From Rosa chinensis (taxonomy: Eukaryota; Streptophyta; Magnoliopsida; Rosales; Rosaceae), in the NCBI RefSeq assembly GCF_002994745.2, contig NC_037092.1, positions 21,353,001 to 21,417,000 of the forward strand: a DNA stretch of 64,000 bases, given 5' to 3'. This document shows, in pieces, positions 12,861-63,000 of this stretch. The position numbers were made by a program, and so were the translations under genes. The first letter of the stretch is position 1. Each line of letters begins with the position of its first letter. The notes under the pieces were generated by a model. The model did no database searches, was not told the origin of the DNA, and saw only the letters and a list, made by a program, of their open reading frames with translations.

Positions 12861-13434
12861 TTGTTGTTTTTTTCTTAATTGGAAATTTTTTAAAAGTATA
12901 TAATATGATTAGAATAACTTTCTTTTAATTTCCAGTGCAAGTGAATTGTTTAAATGCTGTTCTGCGTTTGAGAATTTTACAACAAAGGGAATCGAAATTA
13001 AAAAAGAATGATTAATTTCAGTTTACCCCCTGAGGTTTGGGGGTGTCATCATTTCACCCTCTCTACTTTTAATTTTGAATTTTTACCCCCCAAACTTTCC
13101 AATTTCAATCAGCCGTGTCCAATTTCTCATATTCCGTCCAAATTGGACGTCAACTCTGACTATCAGACCCACTTCAAGGGCTAAAATAGTCACTTCAAGA
13201 CAAAATTTAAAATAATAATAATAATAATTTCTTCTTCTTCCTTCGATCCTCTTCTTCTTGTCTCTCTCATCTCCTCTATTCTCTCTCTTTCTCACCGCCT
13301 CACCACCACCATGGCCCCTGATTAAGACGACTCTCCTCTTCCTCCCTAGACGATGTCGTTGACGAGGACGACATTGAAATCATCAACTCCGCCTCTCATT
13401 CCTCCATCTCTAATTCCCTCCCCATCGCCATAGC

Positions 13435-14315: not shown

Positions 14316-14800
14316 ATCAGAGGAGGGTCTTTGGGGCTGCCCGTCAGAGATGAGAGAGACAAGAAGAGGATCAAAGGAAGAAGAAGAAATTAGTTTTTTT
14401 TTTTTTTTTAAAAAATTGTCTTGAAATGACTATTTTAGCCCTTGAAGTGGGTCTGATAGTCAGAGTTAACTTCCAATTTGGACGGAATAGGAGAAATTAG
14501 ACACGGCTGATTGAAATTGGAAAGTTTGGGGGGTAAAAATTCAAAATTAAAAGTAGAGGGGGTGAAATGATGACACCCCCAAACTTCAGGGGAGTAAACT
14601 GAAATTAATCCAAAAAAAAAAACCGAATGTGGAGGGCTTGGTGAATTGCCCGTTATTGTACATGTAAACAACCCTAAAGTTTAACCAAAGCTTCATAAGA
14701 GGTTGAAACATTAAAAGCAGAAGAAGCAACGGATGATAATCATCACTTGCTTATTAGTTATTATGCCCTGCATGCTTCCTCCGATGCCATCTATTCTATT

Positions 14801-32300: not shown

Positions 32301-32600
32301 TGTTGGGAATGAGAACAAGAAAACAAAGAACTCAAACACAAGAACTGGATTGAATGACTTGATTCTTTATTGAATAACAGTGGTTATTATATAGCCTTAC
32401 ATGAACAAACAGAATAGCTAGAAAACAGCCCAGGCCAACAGAAACGTGGTAAATGCAACAAGAAATAGTCAAAACAGAAATCCCTAAAGAAAGTGTCAAA
32501 GCTGTGAACAACTTCCTAAAGACTAGGGACATATTAAAACTGAAATTAGAACCTAATCAGCAATGATACTAATACCTCCAGGAAACCAGAAAACCCTTCA
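32301..32600 (-). repeat. copia 3' LTR
   Basis: 300 bp, TG...CA ends on the minus strand. About 96 percent identical to 36699-36998. Confidence 0.93.
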
Positions 32601-36698: not shown

Positions 36699-36998
36699 TG
36701 TTGGGAATGAGAACAAGATAATAAAGAACTCAAACACAAGAACTGGATTGAATGACTTGATTCTTTATTGAATAACAGTGGCTATTATATAGCCTTACAT
36801 GAACAAACATAATAGCTAGAAAACAGCCCACGCCAACAGAAACGTGGTAAATGTAACAAAAAAGAGTCAAAACAGAAATCCCTAAAGAAAGTGTCAAAGC
36901 TGTGAACAACTTCCTAAAGACTATGGACTTATTAAAACTGAAATTAGAACCTAATCAGCAATGATCCTAATACCTCGAGGAAACCAGAAAACCCTTCA
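36699..36998 (-). repeat. copia 5' LTR
   Basis: 300 bp, with the tRNA-Met-type primer site immediately inside at about 36684-36698. Confidence 0.93.
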
Positions 36999-47694: not shown

Positions 47695-48498
47695 TTAACT
47701 AGATGATTTCGAGCTCGGACACCCGGTGATATCTCTAATTGAGGCAAAGCTTGGAATGTAAGGAAATATTGAAGCCATTGAGAGACTGTCTAGCCGGAGC
47801 ATCTGATCAAGACCCTTTCTTCCAGGAGTATACACCTCCAGTGTAAGGCTCATTTTATCAAGCAATAACGCTTTCCCGTCTTCTGTGTGTTCTATCACTT
47901 GTTTAAAAAACGGAGTGGTGCCGCTTATTTCCAACTCTTTGGTCCAAGACTCGTTACAGCCGTAATCCTTCATCACCCAAACAATGATTTTGGTATAAGA
48001 GCAAACTGTTACAGAGAGCCAATCTTTCAAGATTCCGAGGTTTAAAGCAGTGACGCTTCGAGGAGAAGGTGGCAGGGGTAACTCTTGAAAACACTCCCTC
48101 TCAACGTTGAAAGCACAAATTATACGAGAGCCGTCAACAGAGCCAACAATCCAGTGAAGAAAACCATTAAGATAAATCCCGCCATTACGTGATCGATAAC
48201 GAAGAGAGTACACAAAATTCCCAATGCTTCTCCAAATCCACGAGCCAAGAGTCAAAACCTTTACCTCCACTTTGTCAGGTTCATCGATTACAGGCACAAA
48301 CAAAAGTACTTTATAGTCATTACTGATAGGACTAAATCCAAAACCAAAATCTTTAATATCATTCTGTTCACCAGTATGAGTAGGTGGAAAAGATAAAGAC
48401 TCACCGGTCAAGGGATTGGATATGCTGTAAAAACGCCTCCTGCCACAGAAAGTCGAGGCAAAATGGTATACAAAAAGGAAGCCATTGCATGAACCCAC

Positions 48499-48733
48499 TG
48501 TTATGATTCTATACTTTTATATGGGCCATTATTCTTGTATGGGCCTATTTGGACTTTATGTTTCGAGAGTCCACTACTTCTAGATATTTTCTTTGCTTAA
48601 ATAACCACTAGCACTTGTAACAGAGGATCATTGAAGTATATTGAAATTTACATTTGCTTGATTTCTCTTGTTTTCCTTTCCTTCCTTTTGCAACTGATGT
48701 CGCTTCACGGTTATGATCCCGGGGATCGTAACA
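48499..48733 (+). repeat. 5' LTR of the chimeric element
   Basis: 235 bp, identical by eye to 53002-53236. Contains a TTAAATAACC stretch that may be a weak promoter and the first ATG of the long frame (48631). Confidence 0.93.
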
Positions 48734-51700
48734 ACTGGTATCAGAGCCCACACCTGGGCCTGTTTCCGGTGAGTCCGGCGGTGTACGGCGGTGGGATCTC
48801 CGGCGTTTATTGCAGAACACATGCTTCTCACCCTCACGGTAGCCCTAGCTACCCAGCACCTCCTTCTCCATTTCCATTCCAACCAATTTACCCACCACCA
48901 CCGCCACCTTCCCAAACCATCATCAATGGCTACACGTTTCCACCACACTTCCTTTACCCAAATCAAACTCATACGTCCACCAACCAACTCAGTTACCCAC
49001 ACTCTCAAGTCATGGTCGAACCAGAGCTTCCCTCGTTTCAACCACAGTACGCCATAAATCCTTCAATTCCAACCTTTCGGTCACCTTCAGTCCCCACATT
49101 TGTGCCTCAACCCCAATTTACAGATCCCATAGCTCCATCTTCTATTTGTTCAATGGGTAACTGTGAGCCCCTAGCTCTAATCACGGATCGGATGCGAACC
49201 ATACCCTCTTCCTCTTCTTCATCATCTGGGCCACAAACCCACGAAGATACAACAAACCCATCTTCTTTGCCGCCAATTTCTGATGTTTTCGTGCAAAAGG
49301 AGGTCCTCCGCTACGAGGCCGCTATCTCCGCCCTCATCGACAAGCTCGAGAAGTTTCACCAGCCCCTCTCCATCATCGTCACAGAGGAGGTCAGCCTCGC
49401 CGGCGAATCCGCCACATCTGACTACCACCAAGGGAAGCAGGCTGTAATAGTTGAGGGACAGGATGACTTGATAAGAGATGAGGAAGAAGATGAAATCACA
49501 CAAGTAGATGAGGAAAATAGAGAAAGAAAACAGAGCTTGGAGCATAGCCAAGTTGCCCATGTTTCCGGCACCGTGATGCGCGACAGGCTCCGCAGTGCGC
49601 CGGCGGTTCCCTCGTCAGGAAATTCGATTCTGGGTAACGACAAGGAACTGGAAGACAATAGTGACATGGGAGCCCATGTGTCTGATTCCGAATTGGAACA
49701 AGAATCGGAAGAGAAAGGAGATGTGAGGTTGACTGAATCCTCCCAGAATTCCACATATAACAAAGAAGGTCTGTTAGAGAAGCTTGGAGGTACGAGTTGG
49801 CCCAAGAATGCTAAATGGGTGGACAAGCTTATGTCGGATACTGAGCAAGAGCAAACAGTGGATGTGCATGATGACCTGCCAGGGGAGCTTGCATTTTATA
49901 CACAGGCTCTAAATGGAATGAGGATGGCCTTTGAGAAGCTTCAGTTAATGGGGCTTCCATTTCTGAGACCTGAGGACTACTATGCAGAAATGGTGAAGTC
50001 GGAGTCCCAATTGGAGAAAGTGAAGAGCCAGTTTTTGTTGGAGATGACTACCAATCGGAGTCAAACCTCATCGTTTCAGGTATGCACTACATTGAATTTA
50101 AATTTTCAAGATGTCGGAAGTGCTTTTGAGAGTATATTATCTGGTATGCTTAAGCTCTATCATAATTGCTTGAATGGTAAAGTTGGAGATAAAAATTGGC
50201 CTCCTGATGAGTGGATTGAGAAAATGAATGGGGATGCTGGTAATTGGTTTGACAACAGGTCAACTAAAGGAATTAAACTTGATAATTTCCTAGTAGCTAC
50301 TGGATTGAGTAAAGGTTATGGATTTGTGAAGTATGCTGCTGTTCAAATGGGTAATAGTGCATTCAATATACCTGGCTATAATCTTTTGTTCAATTTAGAT
50401 GGTGGGCTAACAAATTTGGCTTACTGGCAAATGAGTTTGCCTCTTGCTGTTGGGCTTGAGAAAATTCAAAGGGATGCAGTTTTACTTTTACCTCAAGTGG
50501 CTCAGCTTAAGCTGCCTCAGTTTTTCCTGAGCATCAAGAAACTTGTTCTCCTGGCTGGTGCTTTAAAACCTGTTATTGATTCACTGAGTTCACCTTGTAT
50601 GGAAATCCAAAGAGCAGCTGCTCTATTACTTGGTCAGTTAATTACTGCTGATTTAGATTGCAAGGCACACATTGTTCAAAGGCATGCGGTACAACCATTA
50701 ATTAAGATGCTCCAGTCACCTGATTCACAGGTCAGGGAGATGTCAGCTTTTGCAATGGGGGGGTTCGCACAAGACACACATAACCAAGATGGCATTGCTC
50801 ATAATGGTCCCATACATAACCAAGATGGCATTGCTCATAATGGTCCCATAGTGCCTCTATTGAAGCTACTTAATTCAAAAAAAGAATCTCTGCGACACAA
50901 TGCTGCATTTGCTCTGTATAAGGAGGGCAACCTTGTAGCTCTTATAAAATTTGAAATTGTTCAGAAATTTGAAGATGGAGAATTCTTTGTTCAACGAACT
51001 AAGGATTGTGTAGAGGGGAAGATTTGTGGACGAGTATCGAACAATCTATTATATCTTATGTGGGTTACTGACGAGGATGTTCAAAGTCGAATAGCTTTGG
51101 CTCTTGCTCATCTCGGTAAGCCTGGTGATCGTCGTGTCATTTTCATTGAACATAAAGGAATGAAGCTGCTGTTGGGACTTCTTCAGTCTAAAAGCCTGAA
51201 GCAGCAACATGATGGTTCATTGTTCTTGCACAAATTAGTTACAAAAGCCACTCCACTCTCTCTTGATGTGATTACGGAATCTCTCACGGCAGTAGCCCAA
51301 GCTTTGTGCACTGGACTACATATAATTGTGGCTTACACCTTTTATCAACATTGTTCTATGGTTGTGGAAGCTTCTATAATACTGTGGTATTTTTCTCTTG
51401 TACATTTTTCATTGGATAGTGTTGATTTCAGGTCTGCAATGCTTTGGGTCTGCCTTATTCATGCACGTGAACATGCACTAGACTACTTATTCATGACCTA
51501 TACTGTCCATGCACTCTCTCTCCCTGTGGCTACAATGTTTATCAAAGTTGTTACTGGTGATAATCTTTTTCTATTTGAAGTGCCTATACTTCATCTCCCT
51601 TGCCAAACTAAACCTATCTGCCACCCAAGGAGGTTTTGTGCTGATGAAGCTATTGACTTTCTCAAAAGCAATTCAACGTTATCCTTCCTCAGGTACTCTT

Positions 51701-52971
51701 TTGATCCACTTCTTTCAAAAGATAATTATGTAGGCTTTGTGGCTTATAGGCTCAAGTTTTTTCAATATGTGGTGGGACATGTTCATCAGGATGAGTTTTT
51801 GTTGGGAACTAGCTCTTCAATTTTTTATTCACCATTCCATGAACTTGTGAGGAAGTTTTTTCCTTTATCACTTATTGCTGCCATCCGTTTGATACAACCA
51901 CTTTTGGCTATCATATTGAGAGAAGATGCATACTATATCATTGGAATTGTGGTGGTTATCTCTATTAATGAGCTGGTGTCTTTGAAGTCTAAGAAACAAG
52001 ACCTTGAACCTAGGTATGGTGATGTTTATAATGGGAATCATTGTTCTCCTGTGAGCTGTTCTCTTTTCCTCCCTGAATTCATGAATGCATGGCTTATTAA
52101 ATTTTGCTTCGTTACAATTGACTTTGGAGATCTTGCCTTGGTTCCTTCAAAACATTTTCCAATACCCATGTGGTCAAATGAAGCTTATTTGCCTCTCTTG
52201 TTGTCTGCAATTATGCACTCCCAGATAATGGAATTTGTGATTTCAAGCCATCTACTGCAGAGTCCCATTAGAGAAGCCTTGAGGGTCTTTTCTAATATGC
52301 AAAATTCGAATTGTCGGCAGTCAAATTCTGATTCTCACGTGAGTGTTCATCTATGTGCACTAATACATACTTGGCAAGTTACAGATGACGAAAATGAAGC
52401 TACTACTGTGGCAATTGCACTCAACTCTAGTGCTGCAGTGTGTATTCAAAGTGTTGCAGTGTGTATTCAGCTCAGCTCATGTAAGGCTACCTTTGATACA
52501 GATATATATGTTGCAACTGCACTTATTGGCATGTATTCAAAGTGTGGTCTTTCTCTCAATTTTCAAGATAAGGAAATTGTTACTTACTTTAAGAAGATGA
52601 GGCAACATGAGATGCTTCCCACACCATTCTCTTATGCTACTTTATTGAGTTGTTGTGCAGAGCTAGCTTCTTCATTCCAAGAGAAACAGATTACTACTTC
52701 ATTGATATTAATGAAAATTTCACTTGCCAAAGTGTTTGAAATTGAAACTGATGGTGGGTTTGCACACAATTTGGAGAAGATGTGTTTACTTATTGCTGGA
52801 CATGAGTGGGCAGCTGATGTGATATCTTCATATTTTTCTCTTCTTAATGTGGATGACCTCGCAGATCAGTTTGTTGCACTTGTTGATTTATTGGGTTTGA
52901 AAAAAGTACTGAGTTTGGGTGGTGACTTGCATGATGAAGTAGGGACAATTTGGAAGATAATTCAGGCTTGA
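48631..52971 (+). CDS. 1446-codon chimeric open frame of captured host sequences
   Basis: An uninterrupted frame from within the 5' LTR to 30 bp before the 3' LTR. By residue: 1-35 LTR; 36-230 Pro/Ser-rich with a run of six Pro, source unknown; about 270-475 EBP2-like (rRNA processing); about 555-575 an RRM end (GLSKGYGFVKYAAVQM) as in plant splicing factor SF1; about 634-880 ARIA-like armadillo repeats; about 1280-1350 pentatricopeptide motifs; the rest unassigned, with hydrophobic stretches near 1120-1160. None of the pieces is a full domain set. The real start is uncertain: the 48631 and 48694 ATGs are in the LTR, and the next in-frame ATG is 49012. Whether it is translated is unknown. A frame this long by chance in four unrelated fusions is unlikely, which suggests selection or very recent assembly from coding RNAs. 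Confidence 0.6.
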   Translation: MKYIEIYICLISLVFLSFLLQLMSLHGYDPGDRNNWYQSPHLGLFPVSPAVYGGGISGVYCRTHASHPHGSPSYPAPPSPFPFQPIYPPPPPPSQTIINGYTFPPHFLYPNQTHTSTNQLSYPHSQVMVEPELPSFQPQYAINPSIPTFRSPSVPTFVPQPQFTDPIAPSSICSMGNCEPLALITDRMRTIPSSSSSSSGPQTHEDTTNPSSLPPISDVFVQKEVLRYEAAISALIDKLEKFHQPLSIIVTEEVSLAGESATSDYHQGKQAVIVEGQDDLIRDEEEDEITQVDEENRERKQSLEHSQVAHVSGTVMRDRLRSAPAVPSSGNSILGNDKELEDNSDMGAHVSDSELEQESEEKGDVRLTESSQNSTYNKEGLLEKLGGTSWPKNAKWVDKLMSDTEQEQTVDVHDDLPGELAFYTQALNGMRMAFEKLQLMGLPFLRPEDYYAEMVKSESQLEKVKSQFLLEMTTNRSQTSSFQVCTTLNLNFQDVGSAFESILSGMLKLYHNCLNGKVGDKNWPPDEWIEKMNGDAGNWFDNRSTKGIKLDNFLVATGLSKGYGFVKYAAVQMGNSAFNIPGYNLLFNLDGGLTNLAYWQMSLPLAVGLEKIQRDAVLLLPQVAQLKLPQFFLSIKKLVLLAGALKPVIDSLSSPCMEIQRAAALLLGQLITADLDCKAHIVQRHAVQPLIKMLQSPDSQVREMSAFAMGGFAQDTHNQDGIAHNGPIHNQDGIAHNGPIVPLLKLLNSKKESLRHNAAFALYKEGNLVALIKFEIVQKFEDGEFFVQRTKDCVEGKICGRVSNNLLYLMWVTDEDVQSRIALALAHLGKPGDRRVIFIEHKGMKLLLGLLQSKSLKQQHDGSLFLHKLVTKATPLSLDVITESLTAVAQALCTGLHIIVAYTFYQHCSMVVEASIILWYFSLVHFSLDSVDFRSAMLWVCLIHAREHALDYLFMTYTVHALSLPVATMFIKVVTGDNLFLFEVPILHLPCQTKPICHPRRFCADEAIDFLKSNSTLSFLRYSFDPLLSKDNYVGFVAYRLKFFQYVVGHVHQDEFLLGTSSSIFYSPFHELVRKFFPLSLIAAIRLIQPLLAIILREDAYYIIGIVVVISINELVSLKSKKQDLEPRYGDVYNGNHCSPVSCSLFLPEFMNAWLIKFCFVTIDFGDLALVPSKHFPIPMWSNEAYLPLLLSAIMHSQIMEFVISSHLLQSPIREALRVFSNMQNSNCRQSNSDSHVSVHLCALIHTWQVTDDENEATTVAIALNSSAAVCIQSVAVCIQLSSCKATFDTDIYVATALIGMYSKCGLSLNFQDKEIVTYFKKMRQHEMLPTPFSYATLLSCCAELASSFQEKQITTSLILMKISLAKVFEIETDGGFAHNLEKMCLLIAGHEWAADVISSYFSLLNVDDLADQFVALVDLLGLKKVLSLGGDLHDEVGTIWKIIQA
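49660..50060 (+). pseudogene. captured EBP2-like rRNA-processing gene piece
   Basis: Reads DSELEQESEEKGDVRLTESS, then NKEGLLEKLGGTSWPKNAKW, LPGELAFYTQALNGMRMAFE, and LPFLRPEDYYAEMVKSESQL. This is the N-terminal two thirds of plant EBP2, a nucleolar 60S assembly factor, including the conserved EL-x-FYTQAL and FLRP-x-DYYAEM motifs. It ends at about TTNRSQTSSF, where the next bases look like an exon end with GTATGC retained, after which homology stops. The basic C terminus is absent. Confidence 0.8.
50530..51250 (+). pseudogene. captured ARIA-like armadillo repeat piece
   Basis: Reads SIKKLVLLAGALKPVIDSLS, RAAALLLGQLITADLDCKAH, IVQRHAVQPLIKMLQSPDSQ, GIAHNGPIVPLLKLLNSKKE, FFVQRTKDCVEG, ICGRVSNNLLYLMWVTDEDV and LLLGLLQSKSLKQQ. 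The order equals the C-terminal armadillo repeats of ARM repeat protein interacting with ABF2, a BTB/ARM ABA-signalling protein. The BTB domain is missing. Blocks that the family encodes in several exons are joined without introns, indicating a spliced RNA source. A 36-bp tandem duplication (50779-50850) doubles HNQDGIAHNGPI. Confidence 0.8.
52480..52690 (+). pseudogene. captured pentatricopeptide-repeat piece
   Basis: DIYVATALIGMYSKCGLS and VTYFKKMRQHEMLPTPFSYA followed by TLLSCCAELASSFQ are plant PLS-type PPR motifs. A short segment between them lacks the usual linking motif, so two parts of a PPR gene were joined with a deletion. Confidence 0.65.
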
Positions 52972-53001
52972 GGTCAAGCCTGTTCTTCGAGCGGGTGGAA
53001 A

Positions 53002-53236
53002 TGTTATGATTCTATACTTTTATATGGGCCATTATTCTTGTATGGGCCTATTTGGACTTTATGTTTCGAGAGTCCACTACTTCTAGATATTTTCTTTGCT
53101 TAAATAACCACTAGCACTTGTAACAGAGGATCATTGAAGTATATTGAAATTTACATTTGCTTGATTTCTCTTGTTTTCCTTTCCTTCCTTTTGCAACTGA
53201 TGTCGCTTCACGGTTATGATCCCGGGGATCGTAACA
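53002..53236 (+). repeat. 3' LTR of the chimeric element
   Basis: 235 bp copy of the LTR, preceded by the purine tract and followed by CCCAC. Confidence 0.93.
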
Positions 53237-53589
53237 CCCACAATAGTTCGATGTGACGGATTGTACATGGGATTTCCATCACTACGAAACCTCATTACGG
53301 CATTTTCTTGAATAAAGTTGCTTTTGAGGTCTACCAATGTCAACAATTTGCAGCACGGGCTCCGGTCGTGGACCAAAAGGCATGTGGGTGTACGTGAAAA
53401 CAGGTCTCTAGATAACTGGGGGTAACAGCGCCAAGACTTGCACACAAGCTGGCATTGGACGAGCGTTTTGGTTGGAAGTTTGCACAAGATCTCTGCTATT
53501 ATGTGGTCCGGTAATTGAAGAAGGTAGGGTTTCTTATCTTCTTGGTTTGGTACTAGTCCACCATTATTCTGGCAAACTTTGGTTGTCAT

Positions 53590-60056: not shown

Positions 60057-63000
60057 TGTCACGCCCCTGATTTTACACACATGAAAATCGATATATATAA
60101 CCCCATAATTATATATGCGTGAACGTCCAGTCATCAATACAAAATACCTGGAATCTTTTTCCCTTTAACTTACACAGATATTGATGCCCTGAACCCTCAA
60201 AGTTAATATAAACTCGCTCCATAGAGTTATATATTACAATGCTTACGAAATAGATTGTCAACAACAAAATAAAACGTAAATGCAGCTCAGAGTAACTATA
60301 CAACGGAAGTCCTTAATCAACGGTAAAGTTACAAAATGGCATCCTACCGTAAAGCCGCAAAGACGCTACCTCCGCTTCAGCCCCGATTATCCTAACCTGC
60401 AGGATTAACCCCTACACCGTTTGAATAGTGTACCGGGTTGCCACACAACAAACCCGGTAAGCTTTTGCAAGCCCGTATGAGTAACTCAAACCACACACAA
60501 CTCACGCCAAAAATAAGGAAAACAACTCACGCTTTGATTCCTTAAAACACGAAATAAAGGAGAATAACTCACACTTTAATTTCCTTTCAAATCGAAATAA
60601 AAGAAAGCAACTCACACCTTGTTTCCTTTTAAAACGAAACATAGAAAACAACCCACACTTGATTTCTATCAATAAAACATAGAAAGCAACTCACACCTTG
60701 ATTTCTATCAATAAAACATAGAAAACAACTCACACCTTGAATTCTATCAATAAAACATAGAAAGCAACTCACACCTTTATTTCTATCAATAAAACATAGA
60801 AAACAACTCACACCTTGAATTCTATCAATAAAACATAGAAAACAACTCACACCTTGAATTCTATCAGTTAAAACATAGAAAACAACTCACACCTTGATTT
60901 CTATCAATAAAACATAGAAAACAACTCACACCTTGAATTCTATCAGTTGTACCATAAGCGTACCATAGAAAGCAACTCACACCTTGATTTCTATCAAATC
61001 GTTAATAAGGAAATCAACTTGCACCTTGTCCCCTTAAAAACCATTAATAAGGAAGCAACTCACACCTTGTTCCCTAAAAATACGTAATGTCATGAGTTGT
61101 AAATAACCAATTCCCGTTACCCCATGAATTACCTATATGGCAGACAGATTAGAGCTCTAACTGAAAAACATAACCACTCGTCCGGCCAAAGACGTGGTCA
61201 CCTGGTATTCTGCCCAAGGTCTCAGACCTTTGATCCTCGGGCCGCACTGTCCCTTGGAGCAAAACATTAAAGGAGTCGCACAGGACCCAAAATGTTACAC
61301 AAATCGCAACGCTTTTGAAAACAATCGAAATCAACATTCCCATAATTATTGTTTTCCGAAAAAGCCATAACACAAAACAATAAAAAGCATCAATTCATGC
61401 CTATTGTTTTCATACCCAAATCTCAACACTTTTCTCAAATCTCAACGCTTTTCAAAACAAATCGAAATCAATCATTTCCACAAATCATTTGTTTTCCAAA
61501 AGCCACAACCCAAAACAATAAAAAGCATCATTTCATGCATATTGTTTTCATAAATCCACAAACCACCCAAAACATATATATATCACGTAAACATATATCT
61601 ACTAATACATGAATACGTATGTATATATATACATCCCATAATATACATATATACACACGTAATCATCTACTCAAAAGTGCCACTAATACCATCTATAGTT
61701 TGCAGTTAACTAAATAACTCTCAAAACAGTATGGTGAACCCGTTCGTGATATGAACTTCGTGAGATTACTCACCTCAGAATCCCGCTGCGTCTTCTATAC
61801 AGAACCGAACTAGTACACTATCACCAACAACTCGTCCAATTCACCTTCTAGAAGCACCTATTCACCAATGATCTCAAATCAGTAACGATTCATAACCAAT
61901 TTTAAGTCCGAAACCCCTGTTTTGAACTAAAATCCCCCAAAGTGGCGCCAATCGAGGCAAAACCACATCCGAGACCTCCCGAAGTCTCTGGAATACGTCC
62001 ACGATCGATGTGACCAAACCACAAGTCGATCGGACGCTCAAATCCTCACGGATAGAATAATCGATCGGTATGAAATTGCAAAAATCATAACAATTCCATA
62101 CGAACTCCAAAATTTGCATATTATATATCGAAACGCTCGTATCAACGAGTAGAACATATATAATACCAAAAACAGTTCCTTAAGTGGCCGGAACACCGCC
62201 GGAACACCGCCACAGACGGTGGTGCACCGCCGCCGGCCAAAAACTCATTATTTCACAAAACTCCCAACATCAAAGTTCTTCATCTAAGCATGCTTGTGAA
62301 TTCTCATAACTAGCTCGAAGTCAGAAAACAAGCTTAAGGGATCGAAAACTACCTCACAAGCCGTGAACAGTAATCCCAACTGAGTTGATCGAATTTTCAC
62401 GTGAATCGATCCAAACAACCACCATGGATCGACCAGGGAGCTTGTTCTGAACTCAACCCAAGAAAATCGAAGCCGTGCCGACGTCGGAACTGTGTTTTCA
62501 GGTCGGGTCCGATTTCTCCAGTCTGCACCGCCTTGAACTGCCACCGAGACGGTGAATCGCCGTAAGAGAACACCAGAGGGACGACCAGACGGAGGAGACG
62601 ACCCTGCTGGCCAAGTTTCAAGGCCGGAGACCGCCGCAGTTGGCCGGAAAAGTCGGGTTGGATCGGCCGGGTTCGGGTCGGGTCAGGCGGTTTTCTTCGA
62701 TACTGAGGGAGCGGACGAGAGAGAAGAGAGAGAGAAAAAAAGGCTTCCGGAAAAGGAAATGAGGAAATGAAAATATATTTCTGATTTTTCCTATATATAC
62801 TAAAATGGAAACTTCTTCCGCTAGCCATAACTTTCTCATACGAACTCCGATTCTCGCGTTCCACATGTCCACGAACTCGTAACGACGCGCTCTACAACTT
62901 TCGTGAATGAAGTTTTCAGAGAATCCCAACGTATAAAAAGTCAACCTTTGGCAACCCCCTAAAACCATACTTTTCAAATAATTATTCGCCCGAAACACTT

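Follow-up and report, generated by a model that had tools for sequence, protein, structure and literature searches.

The window analysed here is a stretch of 64,000 nucleotides from Rosa chinensis, and positions are counted from its first letter. Positions 48499-53236 are occupied by an LTR element of 4738 bp that splits an F-box gene located on the minus strand (47695-53589). Paired 235-bp LTRs, a CCCAC duplication, a Met-type primer site and a purine tract had been proposed here in an earlier note made from the sequence alone, and all of them were confirmed at the following positions:

48494-48498, no strand: left copy of the target-site duplication CCCAC, from flank comparison
48499-48733, plus strand: 5' LTR of 235 bp, TGTTATGATT...GATCGTAACA, identical to the 3' LTR
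48734-48750, plus strand: primer-binding site ACTGGTATCAGAGCCCA, read as WYQSP in the reading frame
52993-53001, plus strand: polypurine tract GGGTGGAAA, adjoining the 3' LTR
53002-53236, plus strand: 3' LTR, identical to the 5' LTR
53237-53241, no strand: right copy of the target-site duplication CCCAC, from flank comparison
53242-53589, minus strand: 5' part of the interrupted F-box gene, from the restored frame
47695-48498, minus strand: 3' part of the interrupted F-box gene with one copy of the target-site duplication, from the restored frame

The element thus has the direct LTRs, TG..CA ends, target-site duplication, primer-binding site and polypurine tract of an LTR retrotransposon. Its primer site ACTGGTATCAGAGCCC begins at 48734, directly after the 5' LTR, and is of a type which we take to be that of initiator tRNA-Met. 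The two LTRs are identical at 235 of 235 positions in a pairwise comparison, and this lack of differences fits a very recent insertion. When the flanks were joined without the element and with a single CCCAC, a minus-strand frame of 383 amino acids was restored in which an F-box domain scored over the Pfam cut-off and FBA_3 slightly under it, so that the frame of the F-box gene is intact after removal of the element. The restored frame and the identical LTRs together indicate that the element landed recently in the F-box gene, in agreement with its earlier description as very young.

Several other features lie in the same window. A tandem array of related genes occupies 7953-30796 on the minus strand, and its repeated start reads by eye like a tau-class glutathione S-transferase. 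Direct repeats at 32301-32600 and 36699-36998 (96% identical, 4.4 kb apart) are possibly another LTR element, and 198-nt inverted repeats at 13027-13224 and 14395-14592 (93% complementary, 1.17 kb apart) may represent a DNA transposon. An array of tandem repeats of about 39 bp is found at 60619-60990.

Host-gene pieces in a single reading frame

One chimeric reading frame starts inside the 5' LTR, crosses the primer site and nearly reaches the 3' LTR. This frame and the blocks located along it are as follows:

48697-52971, plus strand: chimeric reading frame of 1424 codons and the stop TGA, with its ATG inside the 5' LTR, 37 nt short of the LTR end
48697-49296, plus strand: proline-rich N-terminal region common to other family members, right border approximate
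49624-50047, plus strand: EBP2-derived block, 86% identical to the donor C1:62669010-62669445 and in the donor's frame, with one 12-bp length difference
50530-51265, plus strand: ARIA-like armadillo block made up of eight donor exons from C6 (54,228,043-54,229,994) with no introns between them
50775-50846, plus strand: 36-bp in-frame tandem duplication in exon 4 of the armadillo block, from repeat and donor comparison
52477-52695, plus strand: PPR-like fragments, weak by Pfam and somewhat better by PDB

The TGA (52969-52971) is located 30 nt upstream of the 3' LTR, and the plus-strand frame measures 1456 codons from stop to stop. The longest plus-strand frame within the interior is 1411 codons, compared with 157 codons on the other strand and no more than 212 in 100 dinucleotide shuffles.

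The four host-gene similarities proposed earlier for the interior (EBP2, RRM, ARIA and PPR) fared differently. The EBP2 block is supported by both a Pfam match (8.1e-24) and its genomic donor on C1, which by eye is one coding stretch there and is silent on introns. The ARIA-like block is likewise supported by Arm and HEAT matches in Pfam and by a multi-exon donor on C6, a gene which we take to resemble ARIA and which has BTB-like stretches downstream by eye. The block aligns to this gene in ten pieces corresponding to eight exons, ordered, in sense orientation and in the donor's frame, with 86-96% identity per piece. Allowing for the one to three shared bases, six of the seven exon joins are exact; a few codons are lost at the join of exons 4 and 5, and exon 6 has an in-frame internal loss. 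Because these exons are joined without introns, the capture used spliced RNA, as expected if the element collects transcripts. For the PPR block, the likeness to a PDB repeat protein stood as a whole-sequence match (1.4e-12, with no single stretch passing alone) but the Pfam match remained under the cut-off. The RRM-like block and its supposed SF1 donor were not confirmed, as the main ORF of the window gave no Pfam RRM match at E ≤ 1. Comparison of residues 850-1260 of the ORF with public proteins returned four rose proteins that share family sequence and no donor. The window blocks differ by 4-14% from the located donors. Like Bs1 of maize, the element therefore holds spliced pieces of several host genes in one frame, with EBP2 and the ARIA-like gene located and PPR recognised by similarity.

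The interior had also been said to lack gag-pol. No gag, protease, integrase or reverse transcriptase was among the Pfam matches listed for the main ORF of the window, six window ORFs in other frames and the scanned ORFs of the family. The E limits were 1, 0.01, 0.01, 0.01, 0.0001 and 0.01 across the scans, with two tables of the 0.0001 scan listing 25 matches each, and of the 42 plus-strand ORFs of at least 120 amino acids in ten elements, 21 were scanned with Pfam, none of them from L009. An autonomous Copia or Gypsy element was accordingly rejected, gag-pol being unrecognised in the window ORFs and in ORFs of eight other elements. Since gag-pol is unrecognisable, we infer that the element is mobilised in trans.

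A Rosa family of mosaic elements

Our LTR search yielded 86 candidates, of which 40 were scored, and 20 regions were taken. Nine of these carry two LTRs in the same orientation, one carries an inverted pair and ten have one LTR match. The earlier proposal of a family is borne out by these nine regions and their differing mosaic interiors. The family set used below is made up of ten two-LTR elements including the window copy, which range from 3.8 to 6.7 kb. A 5-bp target-site duplication and the primer site (with one mismatch each in L009 and L017) are present in all ten, and the purine tract and an ATG at −37 are each present in nine. Two family LTRs in inverted orientation at L011 (1024-1255 and 6430-6617) mark a rearranged locus, and a 1.95-kb repeat inside L009 (1219-3169) also occurs in L019 and L021.

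The interiors are mosaics that differ between elements, with blocks shared in varied combinations. In a Pfam survey of 20 ORFs from eight other members, the families over the cut-off included Arm repeats (importin alpha), C2, importin beta, sucrose synthase, poly-A polymerase, HSP90, FKBP, DUF913, ribosomal L6e, PPR and 3'-5' exonuclease; no match at E ≤ 0.01 was obtained for all four L022 ORFs, three of the four L017 ORFs and the second ORF of L018. In L026, 234 amino acids align without gaps to importin alpha-1A (4b8j, presumably from rice) and a second frame contains a sucrose-synthase piece. The Pfam and protein matches in the window and in these other elements together agree with the claim of several donors.

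Long plus-strand frames are found in all ten elements. Frames of at least 100 codons cover 0.68-1.00 of the ten interiors on the plus strand and 0.00-0.23 on the minus strand. Among the remaining nine elements, the end of the last long frame lies 30 nt (three elements), 36 nt, 12 nt or 190-228 nt (three elements) upstream of the 3' LTR, except in L026, where it falls just within that LTR. The possibility that blocks stand in different frames in different copies was rejected, as 28337 of 29187 nt were in phase and 850 out of phase when only nucleotides within frames of at least 100 codons in both aligned copies were compared. Two long overlapping frames meet at a similar place in the young elements L026 (positions 1911-1945 of the element) and L016 (positions 1928-1982), and these overlaps are either recent frameshifts or a shift site.

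Family sequence is also found among annotated proteins. The common N-terminus occurs in proteins annotated for Rosa chinensis and for R. sericea, and one annotated R. rugosa protein shares an inner family block. Nine public rose proteins (P0001-P0009) share family sequence, and the five of them with the common N-terminus (P0001-P0005) appear to be elements annotated as genes. A literature search, with preprints and most subscription papers outside its scope, returned no description of this rose family.

TRIMs are LTR elements under about 1.5 kb with no coding capacity, and LARDs are large LTR elements without gag-pol whose interior is conserved and non-coding. With 4738 bp and a frame of 1424 codons, the window element is not a TRIM. 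The rose elements resemble LARDs in being large LTR elements without gag-pol, but their interiors are coding mosaics that vary between copies, and membership in this class was rejected as well. Bs1 of maize is an LTR element with three host-gene pieces in a chimeric gene that is said to be transcribed and translated (PMC13317346, PMC7264820). The rose family is like Bs1 in that an LTR element carries pieces of several host genes in a chimeric gene, but Bs1 is one element with three donors whereas the rose family consists of many mosaics with the same ends, and the start encoded in the LTR and the frame running nearly to the 3' LTR set the family apart from Bs1 as the cited excerpts describe it. 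TRIMs with captured exons, such as GmaRetroS15 of soybean, measure 1,172-1,449 bp and share with the rose family, so far as the excerpts describe them, a non-autonomous nature, a 5-bp target-site duplication and captured pieces that consist of exons alone and in one case come from three genes; unlike the rose elements of 3.8-6.7 kb, they are described there without mention of a long open frame (PMC4717578). LTR-mediated retroduplication in pepper, rice and sorghum has placed spliced mRNAs inside LTR elements, and of the NLRs retroduplicated in pepper, about 72% are found in elements lacking gag-pol (PMC5664825, PMC3726574). According to the same excerpts, genes there are captured singly, whereas one rose frame is drawn from several partial genes. 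The TGTT/AACA LTR subfamilies share with the rose elements their Rosaceae hosts and include TRIM-like families, but they are described with atypical ends (TG..TT or AA..CA), and membership in them was rejected given the canonical TG..CA ends of the rose LTRs (PMC5659011).

Openness of the frame and origin of the mosaics

We counted breaks in each element as the minimum number of stops and frame changes needed to read it. Frames are intact or almost so in new insertions, and the number of breaks rises with LTR divergence (Spearman 0.75, p = 0.013, n = 10; 0.90 without L013). At 0% LTR divergence the window copy has 0 breaks and L026 has 1, L016 and L018 (about 0.4%) have 2 each, and five older copies have 6-32, the count of 32 in L009 being inflated by its 1.95-kb insert; the antisense control gave 28-60. 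L013 has only 3 breaks at 9% LTR divergence and is perhaps a recombinant of two elements. It and L026 are exceptions to the age trend, and the broken frames of the young L016 and L026 speak against openness at birth. Decay after insertion looks neutral. The evidence from indel lengths is mixed, with multiples of three making up 17 of 38 in pairwise alignments against older copies and one of two between young ones.

Differences in the captured middle parts are nearly equal by codon position (647, 619 and 699 over 6784 codon pairs, counting only codons open in both copies) and the omega of 0.70 is close to the medians from neutral simulation (0.64-0.83), so the amino acids of the captured part look unimportant. 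The 5' core has an omega of 0.52 and a third-position excess (397, 450 and 596), reflecting mild constraint, and this part of the protein may matter. Such constraint, together with the N-terminal region common to elements and annotated Rosa proteins, would be expected if the frame encoded a functional polyprotein or Gag-like accessory protein in which the N-terminal region works and the captured pieces provide bulk or spacing. We nevertheless consider this rather unlikely, given that the captured parts evolve at about the neutral-simulation level, that no gag or capsid family was recognised by Pfam in the main ORF of the window, and that the recognised domains differ between most elements.

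We also examined stop codons. Over 214 codons the window element shows 70 differences from the ARIA-like donor (omega 0.90), none of them creating a stop, and the comparison with the EBP2 donor (omega 0.68) likewise shows no stop in 141 codons. Other elements that carry a block in common with the window element differ from it there by 18-20%, and in four such diverged copies the stops number 4, 1, 1 and 1 among 701, 703, 615 and 502 compared codons, respectively. In a branch test on a 1.48-kb block with seven copies (the donor outgroup covering 711 nt and the donor's own 16 changes being excluded), the inherited branches and the window tip carried 159 nonsynonymous changes, 56 synonymous changes and no required stops, whereas the other tips carried 157, 53 and 6, respectively. 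The changes passed on between copies thus show no constraint on amino acids. Parsimony assigned a single transient stop to an inherited branch, in a two-change codon where it is avoidable by the order of change. The deficit relative to the other tips gave a Fisher p of 0.03 with zero stops and 0.12 when the transient one was counted, in a test that is small, whose tip branches include some pre-insertion time and whose copies may have recombined. The neutral expectation is about 6.3-8.6 stops, under which zero has a probability of 0.0002-0.002: for stop fractions of 0.0355-0.040 the Poisson probability is 0.0002-0.0005 for zero stops and 0.002-0.004 for at most one, and with kappa 6 (stop fraction 0.0295) that for zero is about 0.002. 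These results suggest that the frame must stay open while the encoded protein changes freely.

Alternatively, openness might be a by-product of pieces that were open at capture and of assemblies too recent for many stops to have arisen. The pieces of the two located donors do keep the donor's own frame, the protein matches of L026 are in frame (although they are so by construction) and decay after insertion looks neutral. Yet blocks that differ by 4-14% from donors and by 18-20% from other elements required no stop on the inherited branches, and the joining of many pieces without a shift is itself improbable, making this explanation quite unlikely. That an ordinary host gene lies between repeats by chance, or that a retrogene lies beside LTRs, is highly improbable even though similar sequences appear as rose proteins in public annotation, as it conflicts with the target-site duplication, primer-binding site, polypurine tract, identical LTRs and restored F-box frame, and with ten elements of different composition and the same ends. 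The empty site and the existence of a family rule out coincidental repeats around a host gene, and no remnants of gag-pol were listed in the Pfam scans of window and family ORFs; these were the two results that the earlier note had named as counting against its reading, and neither was found.

We think it reasonably probable that the family is non-autonomous and moved in trans, that it builds itself through template switching to mRNAs packaged with its own RNA, and that selection acts on the openness of the frame and not on a protein. The window element would then be a recent insertion of a non-autonomous Rosa LTR-retrotransposon family. Its transcript would run from LTR to LTR and might be packaged and reverse transcribed by proteins of another, probably Copia-type, element. 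During this process the polymerase may switch onto co-packaged host mRNAs and other family RNAs, adding spliced gene pieces in sense orientation; such switching is suggested by its products, namely ordered, intron-free sense exons and blocks recombined between elements. As judged from the frame, translation would begin inside the 5' LTR, pass through the primer site and continue almost to the 3' LTR. The pattern of breaks is that expected if new copies arise only from RNAs with an open frame.

The most likely reason for such a filter may be that an early stop would leave a 3' UTR of kilobase length, making the RNA a target for nonsense-mediated decay or a related form of silencing. In plants, decay is triggered by long 3' UTRs, and it is from this and from the distance of 30 nt between the stop and the 3' LTR that escape from decay is proposed, as the least certain step of the scheme. 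The present data are compatible both with selection through RNA decay and with selection on the protein, and our literature search on RNA decay of transposon mRNAs found no paper. Somewhat more tentatively, the open frame as such could be the selected trait, with host mRNAs serving as frame-keeping filler, any open sequence being suitable, and selection purging only stops and frameshifts, which would let the RNA avoid decay or silencing. The family would in that case be a continuous generator of long chimeric ORFs, several of which are already listed as genes in rose annotation.

Accounts of how LTR elements capture genes usually centre on individual examples such as Bs1. Here capture is the habit of an entire family, which combines several donors within one frame and hands the resulting mosaics down. 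Two questions thereby become open to testing: by what route cellular mRNAs are taken up by reverse transcriptase, and whether a non-autonomous element depends on its own translation for survival. Our results also suggest that a number of the proteins annotated in rose are mobile elements, and this bears on gene counts and on claims of new genes.
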